A stretch of 64,000 bases of DNA from Gordius sp. MW1 (Eukaryota > Nematomorpha > Gordioida > Gordea > Gordiidae), in contig OZ038533.1 of the NCBI GenBank assembly GCA_964036665.1, forward strand, positions 387,001 through 451,000, written 5' to 3'. Numbering within the stretch: the first letter of the stretch is position 1; every line of letters begins with the position of its first letter. Under the pieces are notes generated by a model. That model saw only the letters and a program-made list of their open reading frames with translations. It searched no databases and was not told the DNA's origin. Position numbers and translations under genes: made by a program. Shown here in pieces: positions 2,046 to 50,830 of this stretch.

Positions 2046-4280
2046 TGTACTAATTCATATACAATTTTATTTTGGTAAAATTAATCTACATCTTTTAAAA
2101 AACAATAATCATTAAAATTTAATGTAATTAAACTTGGTTTCTTTAACTAATAGATGCTAAGAAAAATATCTGACATTTAGAAACATTTTTCCAAACATTT
2201 ATCATCAAATAAGAAAGGTTTTATAGCTGTTTGCAATTATTGCAACTTGAAATATACATTTACATATCGCAACTCGACTAAAGTGACAAGTCATATAGCT
2301 AAGTGCCCAGATTTTTTTAAAGAAAACTGTCAATTTTTTGATGTCCCCCTCTCCACAATCATCAATTTGTGAGGTAATGCCTGAAAAATGCCTTATACAA
2401 CAAACATCTGCTTTATGTGACCCAAAACAATCAACATCCAACAGCAACAAAAATTAGATGAAAGGTTAGCTTGGCTATTTTCATGTATAACTGTCCATTT
2501 AATATTACCGAGAATCCATATTGGAAGGAATTTTTCAAATTTATAAAACACTCTTACAAACCCCCTTCCAGATAAGCAATAGGAGGTCCATTGTTGAATA
2601 AACTATTTGACAAGATTACAATGATTTGGTATCATCTTCTGATGAGTCAATGTCTTCACTTAACGAAGATTCTGATATTGAAAATTTATGACTTTGATTT
2701 ATATTTAATTATAAAATGCTTGTATTTGCTTCTTTATATTGTTCGACAAATAAATTTAATTAGTCTTAATCATACTCCTTAACATTTTTTCATACTAATT
2801 TATCTATATTGCTCGTTTTTTCTCCTTAATTTCTTGTTTTTCCCCCTTAATTTCCGTTTTTCCCCATTATTTCCAGTATTTTCCCGGGAATTTCCCTTAA
2901 GCAAATTTCCCGGGAAAATATCCATCCCTAGATTGACCCTTTAATTACTTTAAGGCCACCGGTATCGTGACTTTTTCACCTTATCTTCGTCAAATGCTTG
3001 CACTAGCCTGCCACCCCTTGTATCACTATTTGCTAGTTAAAGTAGTGTAACCCTCAATTTTTGCTATGGTAACGTAACGATTTTGTTCTCAGCTTCTGTG
3101 TGCACTAATATTTTGATTATCCTCCGACTTTTTCGATTTATGCCACGATCTATTTGAAGCTTCCTTCATTTTGGTGCACACCGATTGATCCCACCTTAAT
3201 AGTTTCTTTTTAAGACTTACCTGTGATATGCCCTAAACTGTATCACCGTTTACTTTATATTTGCAGTCGGCGTTTCCTTCGATTATGTTCTGCTCTAACT
3301 CGAAGGCTTTTTTTGATAAAAAATGCTTTATTATTAAAAGGTATTTAATATATATTGACAATAAATAAAAGGATACAAGAACAAAAATAATTATAAATAA
3401 AGCGATTAAAAGGCATTGCCCGTTTCTTCATCTTCATTTAGAATGGGCATTTAATCCATCAGGGAATTAAAAGGTTTAGCGATGGTAATGGCGATCGACT
3501 GTCTTGGTAAAAAAATTATGAGGGTGATGAGCGTTTGTTAAGTTCTATAAAAAATTTAAAGCGTTCTTCCTAAACGTCCCTCAACATGACCAAACGTTAA
3601 GAATAAAAACGGAGGATCTTGATAAAGCTGAATATTTTAAGGATTTACGATGCTCTGCCGTTTCTAGGGGATCGAGAGTATTGCTAAAGGGTGCAAACAG
3701 ATCAATATGTAGTCCCATTTAAAAAAATGGTTTTGTCCCATAGGATTGACGTACTCTTCGAATTTATCCCCTTCGAGAAAGGGATTTGATGGTTCAAGGA
3801 TATAGGGAATTTTTGCCCGTTTATTAATTGAATGGCGACCTAAATTTTAACATTTTACACCTAATTTGAGGTTTATATTTAGATAAAAAACAAGGTTATT
3901 ACATATATTTGTTACTTAATATATGTTTATAATATGCCCACATATCCATCTAAATAAAATGATTAATAAAACGTAGGATAAAAAGTAAAACTGATTATTT
4001 ATATTACGGTGCACGCATAGATTATAAACAGGAATAAAACTAAAAGAACACTTTTTGATGTGTGCTCTCTTGATCTTAAAGCCTTGAATGGGAAGATGCA
4101 TACTCTACGACTCTGTTTCACCACGGCTCCAGTAATAATTATCTCTCAAGACACATATCAAGTGGACTATGTTGCCTCGTGATATATTCCCCCCCCCCTA
4201 TTTTTCGCAAATCTTGCTTCCACCATAAAAATAGATAGTCAATTTGGTTCATATGCTTTCCTTCTCTAAATCACGATAGG
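2046..4280. other. AT-rich intergenic DNA, no gene recognised
   Basis: Only short open frames occur here and none resembles a known family. Around 2,870-2,935 there are several palindromic TTTCCCGGGAAA-type motifs ending in CCATCCCTA, which look like the subterminal part of a DNA transposon, but no partner end was found. Confidence 0.5.
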
Positions 4281-42480: not shown

Positions 42481-42524
42481 AAATAATATTTCGCAATATT
42501 AATGTAGTTTTTTATATATCTAAC

Positions 42525-42580
42525 TAGATGAACCCGGCAAACGTTGTTTTGCCATTTACCCGGGTGTATTAAATTATGTT
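42525..42580 (+). repeat. Start of a GACCCGGCAAACGTTGTTTTGC dispersed repeat, truncated
   Basis: TAGATGAACCCGGCAAACGT followed by TGTTTTGCCATTTACCCGGG is shared with 48,347. The 3' end seen in the fuller copies is not present here. Confidence 0.5.
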
Positions 42581-43046
42581 GGAATTTTAGGGCATGTATG
42601 ATGATAAAGCGGTTATTGAAGTAAAAATAAAGTTTGATGCCAATATGTTCTACTTATATTGTTCTATTTCCGTATACAGTGCAACGCGTACGAATACAAC
42701 ATAACGCAATAATATATCAAATTTGTTAAAATATAAAAATAAAATAATTTAAAATGTAAAACTTTTATAAATTTTTTTTTATCCTTCTAAAGAATGACAT
42801 TTGCATAAGACAATTATAATTGCATGCCAAAGTATAAGTGATAAAATTTGCAACTAATCTGTACTAAAAAAATTAATAATAGATAAATAATGACATTTAT
42901 ATATATTGGAATACTAAATAGCATTTACTAAGAATAATCAACGTTGGATGACTGTCTCATATCATTATAAAATGATTTTCAATTAAGAAACACCCAAATC
43001 TAAATATATCCTGTAATAATAGTGTATTTGGAAAAATTTATTATAC

Positions 43047-44699
43047 CTTTGTAAAATAAGATACAGGTTTTTTGGGGTACTCACTAATGTCCTCACATAT
43101 TCCAAAGTCATTATTACAAAATATTAAATCATTTAATGCAGATAATGAGGTATGTCCAAGAACATTAAAACTCTGATCAACATTAGCTGTCAAATATAGA
43201 TAAAGATAAAAAATCGAAAAGTACCACTTGTGAACCAATTTATTATACCTTTGTAAAATAAGATACAGGTTTTTTGGGGTTCTCACTAATGTCCTCACAT
43301 ATTCCAAAGTCATTATTACAAAATATTTTATTTTTTAATGCAGATAATGAGGTATGTCCAAGAACATCAAAACTCTGATCAACATTAGCTGTCAAATATA
43401 GATAAAGATAAAAAATCGAAAAGTACCACTTGTGAACCAATTTATTATACCTTTGTAAAATAAGATACAGGTTTTTTGGGGTTCTCACTAATGTCCTCAC
43501 ATATTCCAAAGTCATTATTACAAAATATTTTATTTTTTAATGCAGATAATGAGGTATGTCCAAGAACATCAAAACTCTGATCAACATTAGCTGTCAAATA
43601 TAGATAAAGATAAAAAATCAAAAAGTACCACTTGTGAAGCAAATAAAAATGTGTTTTTTGAGAAAAATTTATTATACCTTTGTAAAATAAGATACAGGTT
43701 TTTTGGGGTTCTCACTAATGTCCTCACATATTCCAAAGTCATTATTACAAAATATTTTATTTGCAGATAATGAGGTATGTCCAAGAACATCAAAACTCTG
43801 ATCAACATTAGTTGTCAAATATAGATAAAGATAAAAAATCAAAAAGTACCACTTGTGAAGCAAATAAAAATGTGTTTTTTGAGAAAAATTTATTATACCT
43901 TTGTAAAATAAGATACGGGTTTTTTGGGGTTCTCACTAATGTCCTCACATATTCCAAAGTCATTATTACAAAATATTTTATCTTTTAATGCAGATAATGA
44001 GGTATGTCCAAGAACATCAAAACTCTGATCAACATTAGCTGTCAAATATAGATAAAGATAAAAAATCCAAAAAGTACCACTTGTGAAGCAAATAAAAATG
44101 TGTTTTTGAGTATATTTGATGGGGAGGATAAAAATTAATAGTAAGCAGAATTTCTGGATGTTGAATTAAATATTTTGAGGCATTTTTCAAATAAATAAAA
44201 ATGTGTTTTTTGAGAAAAATTCATTATACCCTTTGTAAAATAAGACACAGGTTTTTTGGGGTTCTTAATGTCCTCACATATTCCAAAGTCATTATTACAA
44301 AATATTTTATCTTTTAATGCAGATAATGAGGTATGTCCAAGAACATCAAAACTCTGATCAACATTAGCTGTCAAATATAGATAAAGATAAAAAATAAAAA
44401 AGAACCTCTTGTGAAGCAAATAAAAATATGTTTTTTGAGTATATTTGATGGGGAGGGTAATAATTAATAGTAAGTAGAATTTCTGGATGTTGAATTAAAT
44501 ATTCTGAGGCATTTTTCAAATAAATAAAATTGTGTTTTTTGAGAAAAATTTTTTATACCTTTGTAAAATAAGGTACAGGTTTTTTGGGGTTCTCACTAAT
44601 GTCCTCACATATTCCAAAGTCATTATTAAAAAATATTTAAATCTTTTAATGCAGATAATGAGGTATGTCCAAGAACATCAAAACTCTGATCGACACTGG
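43047..44699 (-). repeat. Seven tandem copies of one SNAPC3-like exon
   Basis: Exon copies: 43047-43186, 43249-43388, 43451-43590, 43678-43811, 43899-44038, 44230-44367 and 44559-44699. Each is preceded by a pyrimidine-rich tract and followed by GTATAA, with spacers of 62, 62, 87, 87, 191 and 191 bp. The copies and their spacers are nearly identical, so the array expanded recently. Copies 1, 2, 3 and 5 are 140 bp with intact splice sites. Copy 4 lost six bases and its acceptor AG. Copy 6 has a three-base loss and an extra base at the donor. Copy 7 has a one-base insertion. Confidence 0.85.
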
Positions 44700-44921
44700 C
44701 TGTCAAATATATATAAAGATAAAAAATAAAATAGTACCTCTTGTGAAGCAAATAAAAATGTGTTGTTTGAGTATATTTGATGGGGAGGATAATAATAAAT
44801 AGTAAGTAGAATTTCTGGATGTTGAATTAAATATTCTGAGGCATTTTTTAAGTTATTTATGTAGTATGTATGTATTTTTTGCCCCGAAGACACCCAAGAG
44901 CTTAGTAAGTGCAATCCTATA

Positions 44922-45110
44922 CGCTCCTGCTCATCTCGATTAAAACGCAGCCAACTAATATGGTTAAAATTGGCAATTTAAAACATATATAAATACATTT
45001 AGTACATATATAGATATATTTAATATCTATATATTTTATATAATATAATATATGTATATATGTTATATAAAGATATATATAATGAAATAATATTAGTACA
45101 ATTAGTTATT
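44922..45110. repeat. Dispersed repeat related to the 5,338 element
   Basis: CGCTCCTGCTCATCTCGATT then AAAACGCAGC, followed by a GATATATTTAATATCTATAT block, repeats the left part of 5,338-5,510. The matching right end was not found. Confidence 0.6.
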
Positions 45111-45382
45111 AAAAAAATGCCTATTATTATATGATTTAAATAATTTCACCTATAACACTTTAATATAATTAAGAAATATTTCATAATATCTATTTCTTAT
45201 AACCTTATTATATAATGCATTACTTTCAATTATATTTTTACTTCTTGTTCAAAATAACGACAGTTCATAATACTGACAGCCTAACAAATTAGACATTAAA
45301 TCTAAAATTAAAATTAGCAAAAAAAATGAACATATGTTTAAACAAATAATTGTACATAATACTATATATAGAATTATATATA

Positions 45383-45740
45383 AGCAATTACTACATATTT
45401 AATATAATATATTATACACTAAATTATATAATTAATAAATACAAATTATTTGGTATAGGGTGGTATATAATTAAGTGTATATAATAAAATCTATGTAATT
45501 ATTTAAAAGCAATTCATACATACTTAATATATTCAATACTAGATTATATAATTAATAATACAAGTTAGTCTGGTAAAGGGTGGTATATAATTAAGTGTAT
45601 ATAATAAAATATATGTAATAATTTAAAAGCAATTTATACGTACTTAATATATTAAATACTAAATTATATAATTAACTAATACACGTAGTTTGGTATAGGG
45701 TGGTGTATAATTAAGCAATATATAATAAATTTAGGTATTA
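45383..45740. repeat. Three tandem AT-rich units of about 118 bp
   Basis: Each unit starts AAGCAATT and contains GGTATAGGGTGGTATATAAT or a close variant. Units begin near 45,383, 45,507 and 45,626. Confidence 0.75.
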
Positions 45741-46898
45741 TATAAAGGATATCATCCGAGTGCTATCTCATGCCTTTAGATTCTTGTTTACAAGGTGATT
45801 AATGGAATATTTAGGATGATAATTGATATAGTTTGAGAGTATAATCTCAGCTTAAACATATAAGAGATTTGCTAAAGTTTTTTTGTACTTTAATAGAAAA
45901 CATATTAAATTTTAAAAGGGCAATCTCTCTAGCCATTAGATTAAATAGAAATTATTCATACAATTTATGATGCTATATAACTTAATTAGATCCTTAAAGA
46001 TTGTAAAGTGATCATTATTATTAGTATCAATGTGCATGTTATTCGATACGCTTTTATATTAAGTGTTTGCTATTATTTTAAAGCAAATTTATTTATACCT
46101 GAACCACTAACTATATCTATTTTTATCCACCTCAACAAATGTTTACTTATTGGTGTACTGTTATATTGATATATAGGATAATTGATGAAACTCTTACCCC
46201 AATTTTTACATTTAATGCTTACAAAAGAGCCTAGAAAAAAATGCTTTAAAATCTTGTTCTTGTTTTAAAAAGTTCTAATTAGAAAATGTTATAGCAAGTT
46301 GTGAAAATCTGTTAACTATCAATAACTTTTTTAAGAATGTGAAAAATTTTATTTTTTACCAAACTTAATTTGAAGAAATATCAATATGTTTAGACTTTAT
46401 AGCATTTCAAACTTTAAACTCTTATCTCAGCTCAGTATTTTGTGCAATCTTTTGCCAGAGATTTTAAATTAAAAGTTTCACATTTAAAAATTAGTACTTT
46501 TGCAAATCCCAATTTATTTTAAAACTTTACTATATTGATACTTAACAACATACATTGAAGACTTTTATTTGGTATAACTATTGTAAGTATAATGACTTGA
46601 CTTGTGTCTCGTTCATGTAAAATATTAGAAACACTACAAATTTTTTTATAATAAGGTAATGATATGCCATTCACACTCTGAAGCTGTTGAAGGGCAAGAG
46701 GCAGTAGGCCTCTTTTGACTTGTCATATATAGGTATGAGGAGTAATACAAGAGTAATCCTCCTTTTTGGGGCCTAAGATATTCTGGGCAAGACACTAGGT
46801 TAATAAATATAAAGTTGAATCTTAGATAAAAATACATATATTGTGAAGATGAATGAAATAAATAAAAATAACTAAGTAGTATAAATATCAAAAAATAC
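45741..46898. other. AT-rich, probably intron of the SNAPC3-like locus
   Basis: No repeat or gene recognised. It would be the large intron between the two exon arrays. Confidence 0.35.
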
Positions 46899-47538
46899 CT
46901 CTGTCCATTTGATTGGTAACATCCATAATTTGTGGATTATCAGTAGGTATGAAATGGCTTATTTGTGTATTAGGAGTGGCCACACTTTGCTGGTCTAAAA
47001 AAATATTACAAAAATTAAACAACACAATACTTTGTGGCTGTTCTTGCCTAACTAAAACTCTAGGCAGTATTCTCATATAGTTGGTAGAAACACCTATTGA
47101 CTGGCTTCTTTGTGTAAGGAGTGGCCACACTTTGCTGGTCTAAAAGATTAAAAAAATTAAGCAATACAATACTTGGCTGTTCTTGCCTAACTAAAACTCT
47201 AGGCAGTATTCTCGGATAGTTGGTAGAAACACCATTGACTGGCTTCTTTGTGTATTAGGAGTGGCCACACTTTGCTGGTCTAAAAGATTAAAAAAAAATT
47301 AAGCAATACAATACTTTGTGGCTGTTCTTGCCTAACTAAAACTGTAGGCAGTATTCTCATATGGTTGGTAGAAACACCTATTGACTGGCTTCTTTGTGTA
47401 TTAGGAGTGGCCACACTTTTCTGGTCTAAAAGATTACAAAAAAATTAAGCAATACAATACTTTGTGGCTGTCCCTGCACAATTAAGGCTCGAAGCAGCAG
47501 TTGATTAGATGCAGAGATAGATGGGAGATTATTCTGGC
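46899..47538 (-). repeat. Five tandem exon-like units upstream of the SNAPC3 core exons
   Basis: Units 46899-46994, 47031-47139, 47173-47279, 47315-47425 and 47461-47538 are separated by 33-36 bp that read GTATTG ... TTTTAG, i.e. tiny introns. The repeated peptide includes QQSVATPNTQRSQSIGVSTN and RVLVRQEQPQS. Units of 96, 111 and 78 bp (first, fourth and fifth listed) are open and phase 1-1. The 109- and 107-bp units are frameshifted by small deletions. No known domain is recognised. Confidence 0.65.
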
Positions 47539-47549
47539 CTAGATAATAT

Positions 47550-48185
47550 AAATTTGAAAATAAATGAAATTGCACTTGTAGGCATGAATAATAATTGAAA
47601 ATATTGCACTTTGTGATATGGTAAAATTTTAAAATAAACGGTAAAATGAACTTTATAATGATTGGTTGTTTACTTAAGATATATGACATATCCTATAAAT
47701 TTTAGTTGCGAAATTGTCTATGAATTTGATAGGTTGTCAGTATTCTGAACTGTCGTTATTTTGGACATAAGCGATATTTTTTACTTGAATCTGTTGCTGC
47801 TCCAGTCCTTTTATGATTAGGGAGCGTGAATATTAGAATAATAAAGGTTAATAAATTCAACCAATGATCAAGTTGGTATATTCTAAATAAGTTTAAATTA
47901 TAATGAGTGTTGTGAAAGGTTAATTTCTTCGGACGATTAAGTTGCTTTATTCAAATTACCTAGAAGGTTAATTTCTTTCCTATGTAAAGATATAATTCCA
48001 AGTAAGTATATGCAAATAAGAAAGGTTAGTGTAACCTTTAGATCCCTAGCTACGCTTATGGAAAGGATTGAAATATTTATGTAGCCCTTTCATTGTTCGC
48101 CTGTGCCGTCTAAACTTAAAACAATTAAGTGCTAAATTTAATTATTCTTCATTTAATTCTTTTAACAAATAAAATTTGATTTAAC
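47550..48185. other. AT-rich DNA, no gene seen
   Basis: Nothing recognisable. Earlier 5' exons of the SNAPC3-like locus could lie here. Confidence 0.3.
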
Positions 48186-48335: not shown

Positions 48336-48346
48336 TTACAATACAA

Positions 48347-49146
48347 TAGATGAACCCGGCAAACGTTGTTTTGCCATTTACCCGGGTATATTAGCAGAAT
48401 ATATATCATATTATAGAATTTCAATAGATTAAGAATATATAAAATATAATTGGTAAGTGTTTATTATGCAAGTTTTTTTAACAAATAGTTAAAGAGGGTC
48501 CAAGGCCCAGGCCTACCCAAGAGAGAAAACCTGGCCCCATGCCCCCCCCCAAGGGAAAAATCTTTGGCCCCCTGGCCCTTCAAGCAGTTTTTTTTAATTT
48601 TTTGTAATTGAAACAATATCATAATTATAATTATTTGTTTCTGAATAATGTCCGAAGAACTGAGATATATCAACATTTATTGGCTCTTTGTTAACAGTAT
48701 TTTCATTTTTCTCCTTATTTAACGCGCAAAAAAATGACAAAATTAGATTTTTTTAATTTATTTAGCCACGCAGGAGGGGACACGACCGTCCAATAATGAT
48801 AATAATTGATGTGAAAAATAAGCAAAAAAATGACTTTGATTTAATGTTTCGAGTGGTAAAAAGTTTCCATTTTCCGCAGCACATGCCTACATTTATCATC
48901 ACACTACAAACGATAGATGCGCAGTACGTCATGAGGTTGCGTTTGATCGACATTTTATTAAACGTCAAAACGTATAAAACAAACTCAAAAACTACTGGAC
49001 CGATTTGGCTCAAACAAATCTTAAAACACGCTCCGGAGTGTGGGGAATGTGAAATTTTGAGTCAAATCGGTCCGGTAGTTTTCCAAATATGGTGGCGGCA
49101 TATATATATATACATATATACATAGTTTCATTTTTATATATAAGAT
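48347..49146 (+). repeat. Dispersed repeat, GACCCGGCAAACG start to TATATATAAGAT end
   Basis: It starts TAGATGAACCCGGCAAACGT and ends ATAGTTTCATTTTTATATAT then AAGAT, as does the 50,152 copy. It holds a GGACCGATTTGGCTCAAA block and its near-inverse GTCAAATCGGTCCGGTAG (48,998-49,077). No protein is encoded, so it looks like a non-coding retroposon or 3' end of one. Confidence 0.6.
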
Positions 49147-49690: not shown

Positions 49691-50151
49691 TTTATATTTC
49701 AAGAAATAATTTTGTCTTATTTTCAAAAAATTTTGATCTAGTTCTAGGATTTTTATAAATAGAAAGGTGACAAAAAAATAGTAAACTATATAAAAGATCT
49801 TATTATGGTGCCCGCCCGCTTACTTGAAAATCTCAATTTAGAACGGTAGCCTGCACGACCCCTTAGCCGAGTGGGGCTAGCAGCGAGCCCGACTTTTGGT
49901 TGTTTAATTTTGATTTTTAATTGCAAATAAAATGTAAAAAAAATTTGCCAGCTTTCCCCCCCCCCTCCCCCTTGAGAAAATCCTGGCTACGCGCCTGTAC
50001 CAGATTTTATAATTTTGATGTTGAAATAAAAATGTTATAAAAAATTTCTGGAAATTTTTCCCCCGCGGGAGAAAATCCTGGCTACGCGCCTGAACTAAAC
50101 TATTCTTTTTTCACGTATTCACATATATACGACAATTATATATAATAATAC

Positions 50152-50830
50152 TAGCTGACCCGGCAAACGTTGTTTTGCTAAAAATACAATTTTCTTTAAT
50201 ATAATAAAATTCGAGAAAACTTCAGCCTTGTATGTATGACGTAATTGTTGTATATGATGCTACAAATGAAACTGGCCGGGAAATGTCCGATATTTTTAAA
50301 GCTAAAAGGAATTTTAGGATTCTGAAAAAGTTATTTTACCCCTGGCCGCCCTGGGCATCTATGGCTAAATTTTCGCGCGAACTGGGGCGGTAGTTTCAGA
50401 GTTTAGCCCTTTTTTAAAACGTAATGTCCGATATTTTTAAAACTAAAAGGAATTTTAGGATTCTGAAAAAGCTATTTTACCCCTGGCCGCCCTGGGCATC
50501 TACGGCTAAATTTTCGCGCGAGGCCGGTAGTTTCAGAATTTAACCCTTACATACAACATTTTTATTATACTTTTAAATATCTAATTCAGCCTTGTATGTA
50601 TGACGTCATTATTGTATAGGATGCTATAAATGAAACTGGCCGGAAAATGTCCGATATTTTTGAAACTAAAAGGAATTTTAGGATTCTGAAAAAGCTATTT
50701 TACCCCTCGCCGCCCTGGGCACCTATGGCTAAATTTTCGCGCGAATCGGGCCGGTAGTTTCAGAATTTAGCCCTTATCCACACACATACACACAAACAAA
50801 CATACATAGTTTCATTTTTATATATAAGAT
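50152..50830 (+). repeat. Dispersed repeat with internal triplication
   Basis: It runs from TAGCTGACCCGGCAAACGTT to TTTCATTTTTATATATAAGA. Inside, a block of about 125 bp beginning GTCCGATATTTTTAAA and including CCGCCCTGGGCA occurs three times (near 50,285, 50,425 and 50,648). A CAGCCTTGTATGTATGACGT block occurs twice (50,223 and 50,587). Confidence 0.65.

Follow-up and report, generated by a model that had tools for sequence, protein, structure and literature searches.

The exon array and its surroundings

The window, the whole stretch of 64,000 nucleotides analysed here (C7:387001-451000), carries on its minus strand at 43047-44699 seven head-to-tail copies of the core exon of SNAPC3, which belongs to the complex driving the small nuclear RNA genes. 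A repeat search of the window placed all seven copies in register and recovered the coordinates and the copy number that an earlier note had given for a seven-fold tandem SNAPC3 core exon of 134-141 bp. The spacings between the exon copies are 202, 202, 227, 221, 329 and 332 bp, and Tandem Repeats Finder reports periods of 202, 221 and 329 bp over 43035-44848 with scores of 1185, 1229 and 1754, which is far above chance level. The copies and the features around them are listed in Table 1.

Table 1. Features of the SNAPC3 exon array and its surroundings, in window positions
Feature	Position	Strand	Remarks
Helitron copy with SNAPC3 fragment	42524..44916	-	3' end at 42524; flanks common to other copies
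Helitron-type 3' terminus, palindrome and CTAG	42524..42575	-	pattern frequent genome-wide
Captured SNAPC3 block, partly repeated	42735..44859	-	87-93% identical to donor-local 2653-3262, in seven pieces
Next SNAPC3 exon (exon B)	42929..43010	-	low-coordinate end approximate; 1-base deletion, frameshift
Exon copy 1	43047-43186	-	140 bp; frame open, AG/GT
Exon copy 2	43249-43388	-	140 bp; frame open, AG/GT
Exon copy 3	43451-43590	-	140 bp; frame open, AG/GT; identical to copy 2 over 166 tree columns
Exon copy 4	43678-43811	-	134 bp; 6-base deletion; acceptor AG changed to AA, lost
Exon copy 5	43899-44038	-	140 bp; frame open, AG/GT
Exon copy 6	44231-44367	-	137 bp; exon bases missing (alignment); extra G precedes donor
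Exon copy 7	44559-44699	-	141 bp; frameshift and stops
Element sequence upstream of captured block	44860..44916	-	also in C8:20.293M and C8:18.42M; not in donor
Unrelated element with terminal inverted repeats, 146-bp and 120-bp tandem arrays	45246..47767	.	contains the 46,899 'exon'

Every unit had been credited with its own acceptor and a GTATAA donor. This is right for most of the array, since CAG stands directly before the exon in six of the seven copies and GTATAA directly after it in six of the seven, but copy 4 has CAA in place of the acceptor and copy 6 has an extra G ahead of the donor. Copies 1, 2, 3 and 5 had been called intact and the other three damaged, each by a distinct lesion, and the alignment agrees: four of the seven are open with AG/GT, and copies 4, 6 and 7 are damaged differently. 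When translated, the exon matches the SNAPC3 profile PF12251 with E = 1.9e-4 and 21.6 bits, under the curated cut-off of 23.8 bits. The assignment to SNAPC3 is more firmly based on the DNA, the exon and intron of the window unit being 91% identical to the donor gene described below.

There are no in-frame constitutive SNAPC3 exons on the two sides of the array. The downstream partner that had been proposed at 43,010 is indeed a SNAPC3 exon, exon B, but the single-base deletion shifts its frame and leads to a stop after 17 residues. The SNAPC3 exons beyond exon B are missing from the window, which holds only a piece of about 610 bp of the gene together with repeats. The junction proposed on the upstream side, at 46,899, is not SNAPC3 at all; the sequence there is a dispersed repeat, enclosed by the inverted arms of a different element (45-nt arms, 91% complementary, 2432 nt apart), and 46850-47560 has 61 matching stretches genome-wide at 79-100% identity, window included. 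This 'exon' was therefore rejected as a part of SNAPC3.

The SNAPC3 gene on C4

A search of the genome (211.8 Mb, 12 contigs) for SNAPC3 outside the array, which the earlier note had named as a check, found a gene on a different contig from the window, at C4:11.235 Mb, whose core stands in open exons. Three stretches of C4:11234801-11236388 match positions 1-70, 48-121 and 139-198 of the 199-position PF12251 model, and among the 17 rows of the profile search this locus is the only place with model positions above 76. There are stops inside the matches (3 TAA, 1 TGA, 1 TAA), which we take to fall outside the presumed exons, namely in the intron that follows the core exon, immediately past exon B, and where the other two matches begin. 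A protein joined from the C4 translations, with the first exons left out and following a presumed splice model, matches human SNAPC3 (7xur_B) with E = 4.7e-44 over query residues 6-261, the Cys/His region included. In the joined protein about 17 residues ahead of '...MHKWSQ' form an insertion in the alignment and are probably intron sequence. Two presumed introns of this gene, at C4:11236250-11236440, measure no more than about 34 and 36 nt.

Dispersal and the shared block

With the window unit as DNA query we found at least 57 matches in the genome, one in the donor gene, seven in the window and 49 elsewhere; the counts are lower bounds, and some places have a part of the exon only. The exon, whole or partial, is present at no fewer than 19 non-donor places including the window, on C1, C3, C5, C6, C7 and C8. 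Full exon units outside the donor number 40, at 14 places: seven each in the window and at C8:33.27M, six at C1:15.00M, three each at C1:10.30M, C8:18.42M and two places on C6, two at C3:8.01M, and one at each of six others. Two stretches of C6, 12826062-12829786 and 12854320-12858044, each with a SNAPC3-bearing copy, are identical over 3725 bases (100%) and lie 28.3 kb apart, and this pair either arose very recently by segmental duplication or is an artefact of the assembly.

The part of the gene that is found in the copies is C4:11235953-11236562 (donor-local 2653-3262, about 610 bp), introns included. Its borders, the flanks and the element ends were compared for 13 of the 19 places, that is for all except C1:1.46M, C1:15.11M, C5:7.61M, C8:20.288M, C8:29.12M and C8:34.60M. 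A piece starting at donor-local 2653 is present at nine of the 13 places. The block reaches 3259-3262 at three of the 13 (the window, C8:20.29M and C8:18.42M), and in the rest it ends earlier, often at 3121. Outside the borders, the 13 places have flanks in common with each other and none with the donor, as seen in the rows with the donor and with the window as query; the only further match of the donor to the compared places is an unrelated piece of 86 bp. At the borders shown, donor and copies diverge inside a short AT-rich stretch. A processed pseudogene was rejected as the source because the copies contain intron sequence, and a plain segmental duplication of the SNAPC3 gene because the copies have internal borders and non-donor flanks in common.

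The deletion in exon B is present in seven of 26 aligned rows, the donor being one of the 26: in the window, in three rows of C8:20.288M, in C8:20.293M and C8:18.42M, and in one of the two rows of C8:33.27M. As 18 of the 25 non-donor rows are without it, exon B is not broken family-wide, and since the window has the deletion in common with four other places, a single branch of the transposon family has probably passed it on. At C8:20287300-20289000 there are three tandem copies, about 280 bp apart, of exon B and a short piece of the core exon only; another part of the captured fragment has thus also turned into a repeat unit.

Element ends and helicase

Helitrons are recognized by a 5' TC, a 3' CTRR or CTAG, a hairpin, and insertion between A and T (PMC6544945, PMC4778049). 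The window copy has the 3' end ...GGCAAAACAACGTTTGCCGGGTTCATCTAG, followed by T, and its flanks at 42573-42735 and 44860-44916 occur in other copies and are absent from the donor gene. On the other side a foreign repeat starts at 44922 and cuts the copy off; the copy's own 5' end was not found. Eight SNAPC3 places have a common type of 5' end, TCTA(T)ATATA followed by common sequence, with CACGTG in six of the eight, and the base before the TC is A in seven of them and T at C8:33.27M. The 3' ends shown read CTAG followed by T in six of seven cases, five of which are from SNAPC3-bearing elements, the window among them, and the other one, at 48346, reads CTAT. A Helitron-type end was thereby shown at 11 of the 19 non-donor places, and two more, both on C6, have the common flanks.

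The pattern of the 3' end, with 0-4 bases allowed before CTAGT, has 471 + 542 = 1013 exact occurrences in the genome, against 0 and 0 for the reversed control, and these will include ends of other Helitron subfamilies. When 42527-42575 was folded as DNA the ACCCGG...CCGGGT stem formed, with a z of -1.09 and 25 of 200 shuffles folding as well. An empty site without target-site duplication, as expected for a Helitron, was sought with the joined flanks of C8:33.27M, and no row crossed the joint except the element's own 5' flank, which went slightly past it; this 5' flank is itself a repeat, and the other copies end at query 100-112, the joint being at 118.

From the array to its 3' end the copy at C1:15.00M has, in the same orientation as the exon, frames for PIF1 (E = 1.3e-9 and 5.8e-17) and Pif1_2B (1.5e-18); a fourth one, closer to that end, has weak helicase matches only, under the cut-off. 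The helicase is split over several frames. No Rep domain, which the RepHel protein of autonomous Helitrons would include, was seen in this copy, the one whose helicase region was read through. In the genome as a whole there are 150 scored matches to Helitron_like_N among 714 candidates, which need not belong to the SNAPC3-bearing subfamily. Frames that by eye resemble a Ty3/gypsy retrotransposon (C1:14997884-15001723) are nested between the helicase parts of the same SNAPC3-bearing Helitron.

Order of array growth

The tree of the units is mostly unresolved, with two of 33 inner branches starred, and the order of array growth and dispersal therefore rests on the repeat junctions, which were matched in 20 stretches with at most three errors (at most four for 3121/2685). 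Junction 3171/2927 is present four times in the window and also at C8:18.42M and C5:7.61M, and 3121/2685 at eight places, two of which are the identical C6 pair. Junctions 3146/2945 and 3261/2927, the 202-bp and 329-bp junctions, were found in the window only among the 20 stretches searched. The probe for 2885/2943 was uninformative because the donor and most places matched it too. As some junctions are common to several places and others belong to the window only, the amplification seems to have taken place partly before and partly after dispersal. The recent expansion suggested in the earlier note is supported in part.

Coding constraint and splice phase

In an array of mutually exclusive exons the variants would be expected to be under purifying selection. 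(Counts are for 37 exon copies, with the three full units of C6:12854320-12858044 left out, this stretch being identical to C6:12826062-12829786.) Against the copy consensus we counted 60 distinct changes, of which 13 are synonymous, 43 are non-synonymous and 4 give a stop, and the neutral expectation for the exon less its last base is 19-26% synonymous, 71-76% non-synonymous and 3-5% stop. Among the changes that are present in at least one intact copy there are 9 synonymous, 27 non-synonymous and 1 stop. No purifying selection was seen on the exon variants in the 37 copies, with numbers small enough to leave room for weak constraint. Over 35 rows, where two further units (C1:20.95M and C7:481k, upstream not homologous) were left out, the exon differs pairwise by 3.7%, the last 20 columns of the intron by 4.2% and 11 downstream columns by 6.1%; the exon is thus a little more alike than its flanks, yet without a codon signature. 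The frame is open with AG/GT kept in 26 of the 37 copies, and a divergence of 3.7% may simply be too little to break them, so that low divergence alone would suffice to explain the open copies.

The geometry of the exon, entered in phase 1 and left in phase 0, had been given as a reason why two copies could never be spliced together in frame. This holds if the CAG acceptor is used, but the donor gene seems to fit another one. Its presumed upstream exon is open to ...CAA ATG/GTACTT, in phase 0, and the acceptor that would fit is TTAG, four bases before CAG, giving an exon of 144 nt in phase 0-0. The TTAG site reads TTTG in 35 of the 37 copies, the other two being not homologous there. The CAG acceptor may not be the gene's own, and the phase argument, which depends on it, is accordingly unsure.

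Discussion

We consider it very probable that the exon array is a fragment of SNAPC3 that was captured by a Helitron, then became its satellite-like central repeats and was dispersed with it. In this course of events a Helitron, a rolling-circle DNA transposon, would have taken about 610 bp of the host gene at the DNA level, possibly by break repair or aberrant transposition. The piece starts inside one exon and ends inside a further intron, with the core exon, the short introns on either side of it and the next exon lying in between. By duplication inside the element the core exon and its spacer would have become the monomer of a short central array, which may have grown through unequal exchange or slippage. 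The elements would then have arrived at at least 19 places, some of them already carrying repeat junctions, and the copy number would have kept changing at single places. The copy in the window, which lacks its own 5' end, would be non-autonomous and dead, and presumably produces no SNAPC3 protein. Several observations weigh against this reading: 26 of the 37 exon copies are open with AG/GT, 18 non-donor rows do not have the exon-B deletion, the base before the 5' TC at C8:33.27M is T, the hairpin at the 3' end in the window does not outdo shuffled sequence, and the search for an empty site found none. As fallbacks, the earlier note had named a decaying gene fragment, or satellite growth that happens to include an exon, and both come close to this reading.

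The function that the earlier note had put first was that of mutually exclusive exons, which in Dscam-type genes are tandem copies of one exon, each with its own splice sites. The window has tandem exon copies with their own splice sites too, four of the seven are open with AG/GT, and with the CAG acceptor the exon is 140 nt, not a multiple of three, so that two copies could not be joined in frame. A choice array would need a working SNAPC3 gene or paralogue around it, and what is found is a supposed exon upstream that belongs to another element, an exon downstream that is frameshifted, and no more than about 610 bp of the gene, while C4 has the SNAPC3 core in open exons. With partner exons missing or broken, a choice array is already very unlikely. 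In addition the unit, whole or in part, is present at 18 other non-donor places, and the substitutions match the expectation without coding constraint. Unlike a Dscam-type array, this one has no working host gene and its repeats are dispersed by transposons, and we give a functional array at the window locus practically no probability.

Plain satellite growth of a decayed gene duplicate, with no mobile element involved, would explain the tandem structure, the lesions and the variable unit length. However, a gene duplicate should keep the flanks of the donor past the block of about 610 bp, and none of the 13 compared places does; instead they were dispersed with common non-donor flanks, there are Helitron-type ends at 11 of the 19 places, and array junctions are common to different places, all of which makes this explanation highly improbable. 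It is also conceivable that the captured fragment was useful to the element or to the host, for instance through small RNAs homologous to SNAPC3 or decoy transcripts, and that this favoured the growth of the array. In the copy at C1:15.00M the exon and the helicase frames point the same way, there are several different repeat junctions and up to seven full exon copies per element, and captured sequences in maize are mentioned as siRNA reservoirs in work cited in PMC13317346. Against this, no coding constraint was seen, and Helentron-type elements of the oyster are described with satellite-like central repeats (PMC7492417), so that arrays alone need no benefit; a useful fragment is accordingly very doubtful to us. 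One form it could take, with an equally slight chance of being true, is that small RNAs or decoys from the dispersed Helitrons lower the host's SNAPC3 and so weaken transposon control, by which the array would be kept and enlarged. In C. elegans, a variant subunit of the snRNA-gene complex is reported to drive male piRNAs (PMC7884074).

The capture of a gene fragment by a Helitron, which we favour, is in itself not new (PMC4778049, PMC6544945), and neither are satellite-like central repeats in non-autonomous rolling-circle elements (PMC4067079, PMC7492417). The Helitrons with captured gene fragments in maize, bats and silkworm are described with the same features as ours, a 5' TC, a 3' palindrome with CTRR or CTAG, insertion between A and T, and capture at the DNA level (PMC6544945, PMC4778049), but here the captured exon forms a tandem array, some junctions of which are common to several copies. 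The Helentron/HINE elements, Cg_HINE of the oyster and the DINE-1-like elements of Drosophila, are likewise given as non-autonomous, dispersed rolling-circle elements with short central arrays (PMC7492417, PMC4067079). The monomers of the oyster HINEs average 140-180 bp and are satellite-related or of unresolved origin according to PMC7492417, whereas the window unit is 202-332 bp and includes a host exon that can be assigned to its donor gene. HINEs are also found at oligo-T sites, in contrast to the Helitron-like ends of the SNAPC3-bearing elements (CTAG, insertion between A and T).

Such central repeats are discussed as deriving either from captured sequence or from the element's own (PMC7492417). 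What looks unusual in the present case is that a traceable host exon serves as the repeat monomer. In the titles and abstract starts of the open-licence PMC papers listed by our searches we found neither a captured host exon that became a tandem array of a Helitron nor a transposon that had captured SNAPC3, although such a negative is weak evidence. Because the host exon in the monomer has an identified donor and the junctions can be traced between places, the SNAPC3-bearing Helitron family is a readable record, with capture first and amplification and dispersal afterwards. It is also a warning for annotators, as tandem open exons with good splice sites need not mean a gene.

Other elements in the window

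Two short elements at 48346-49145 and 50151-50829 have Helitron-like ends, with a 3' palindrome and CTAT or CTAG. Their 5' end is TCTTATATATAAAAATGAAACTATG (the one at 50829 was read by eye), which differs from the 5' type of the eight SNAPC3 places. The 5' end of the copy at C7:481k is similar to that of these two short elements.
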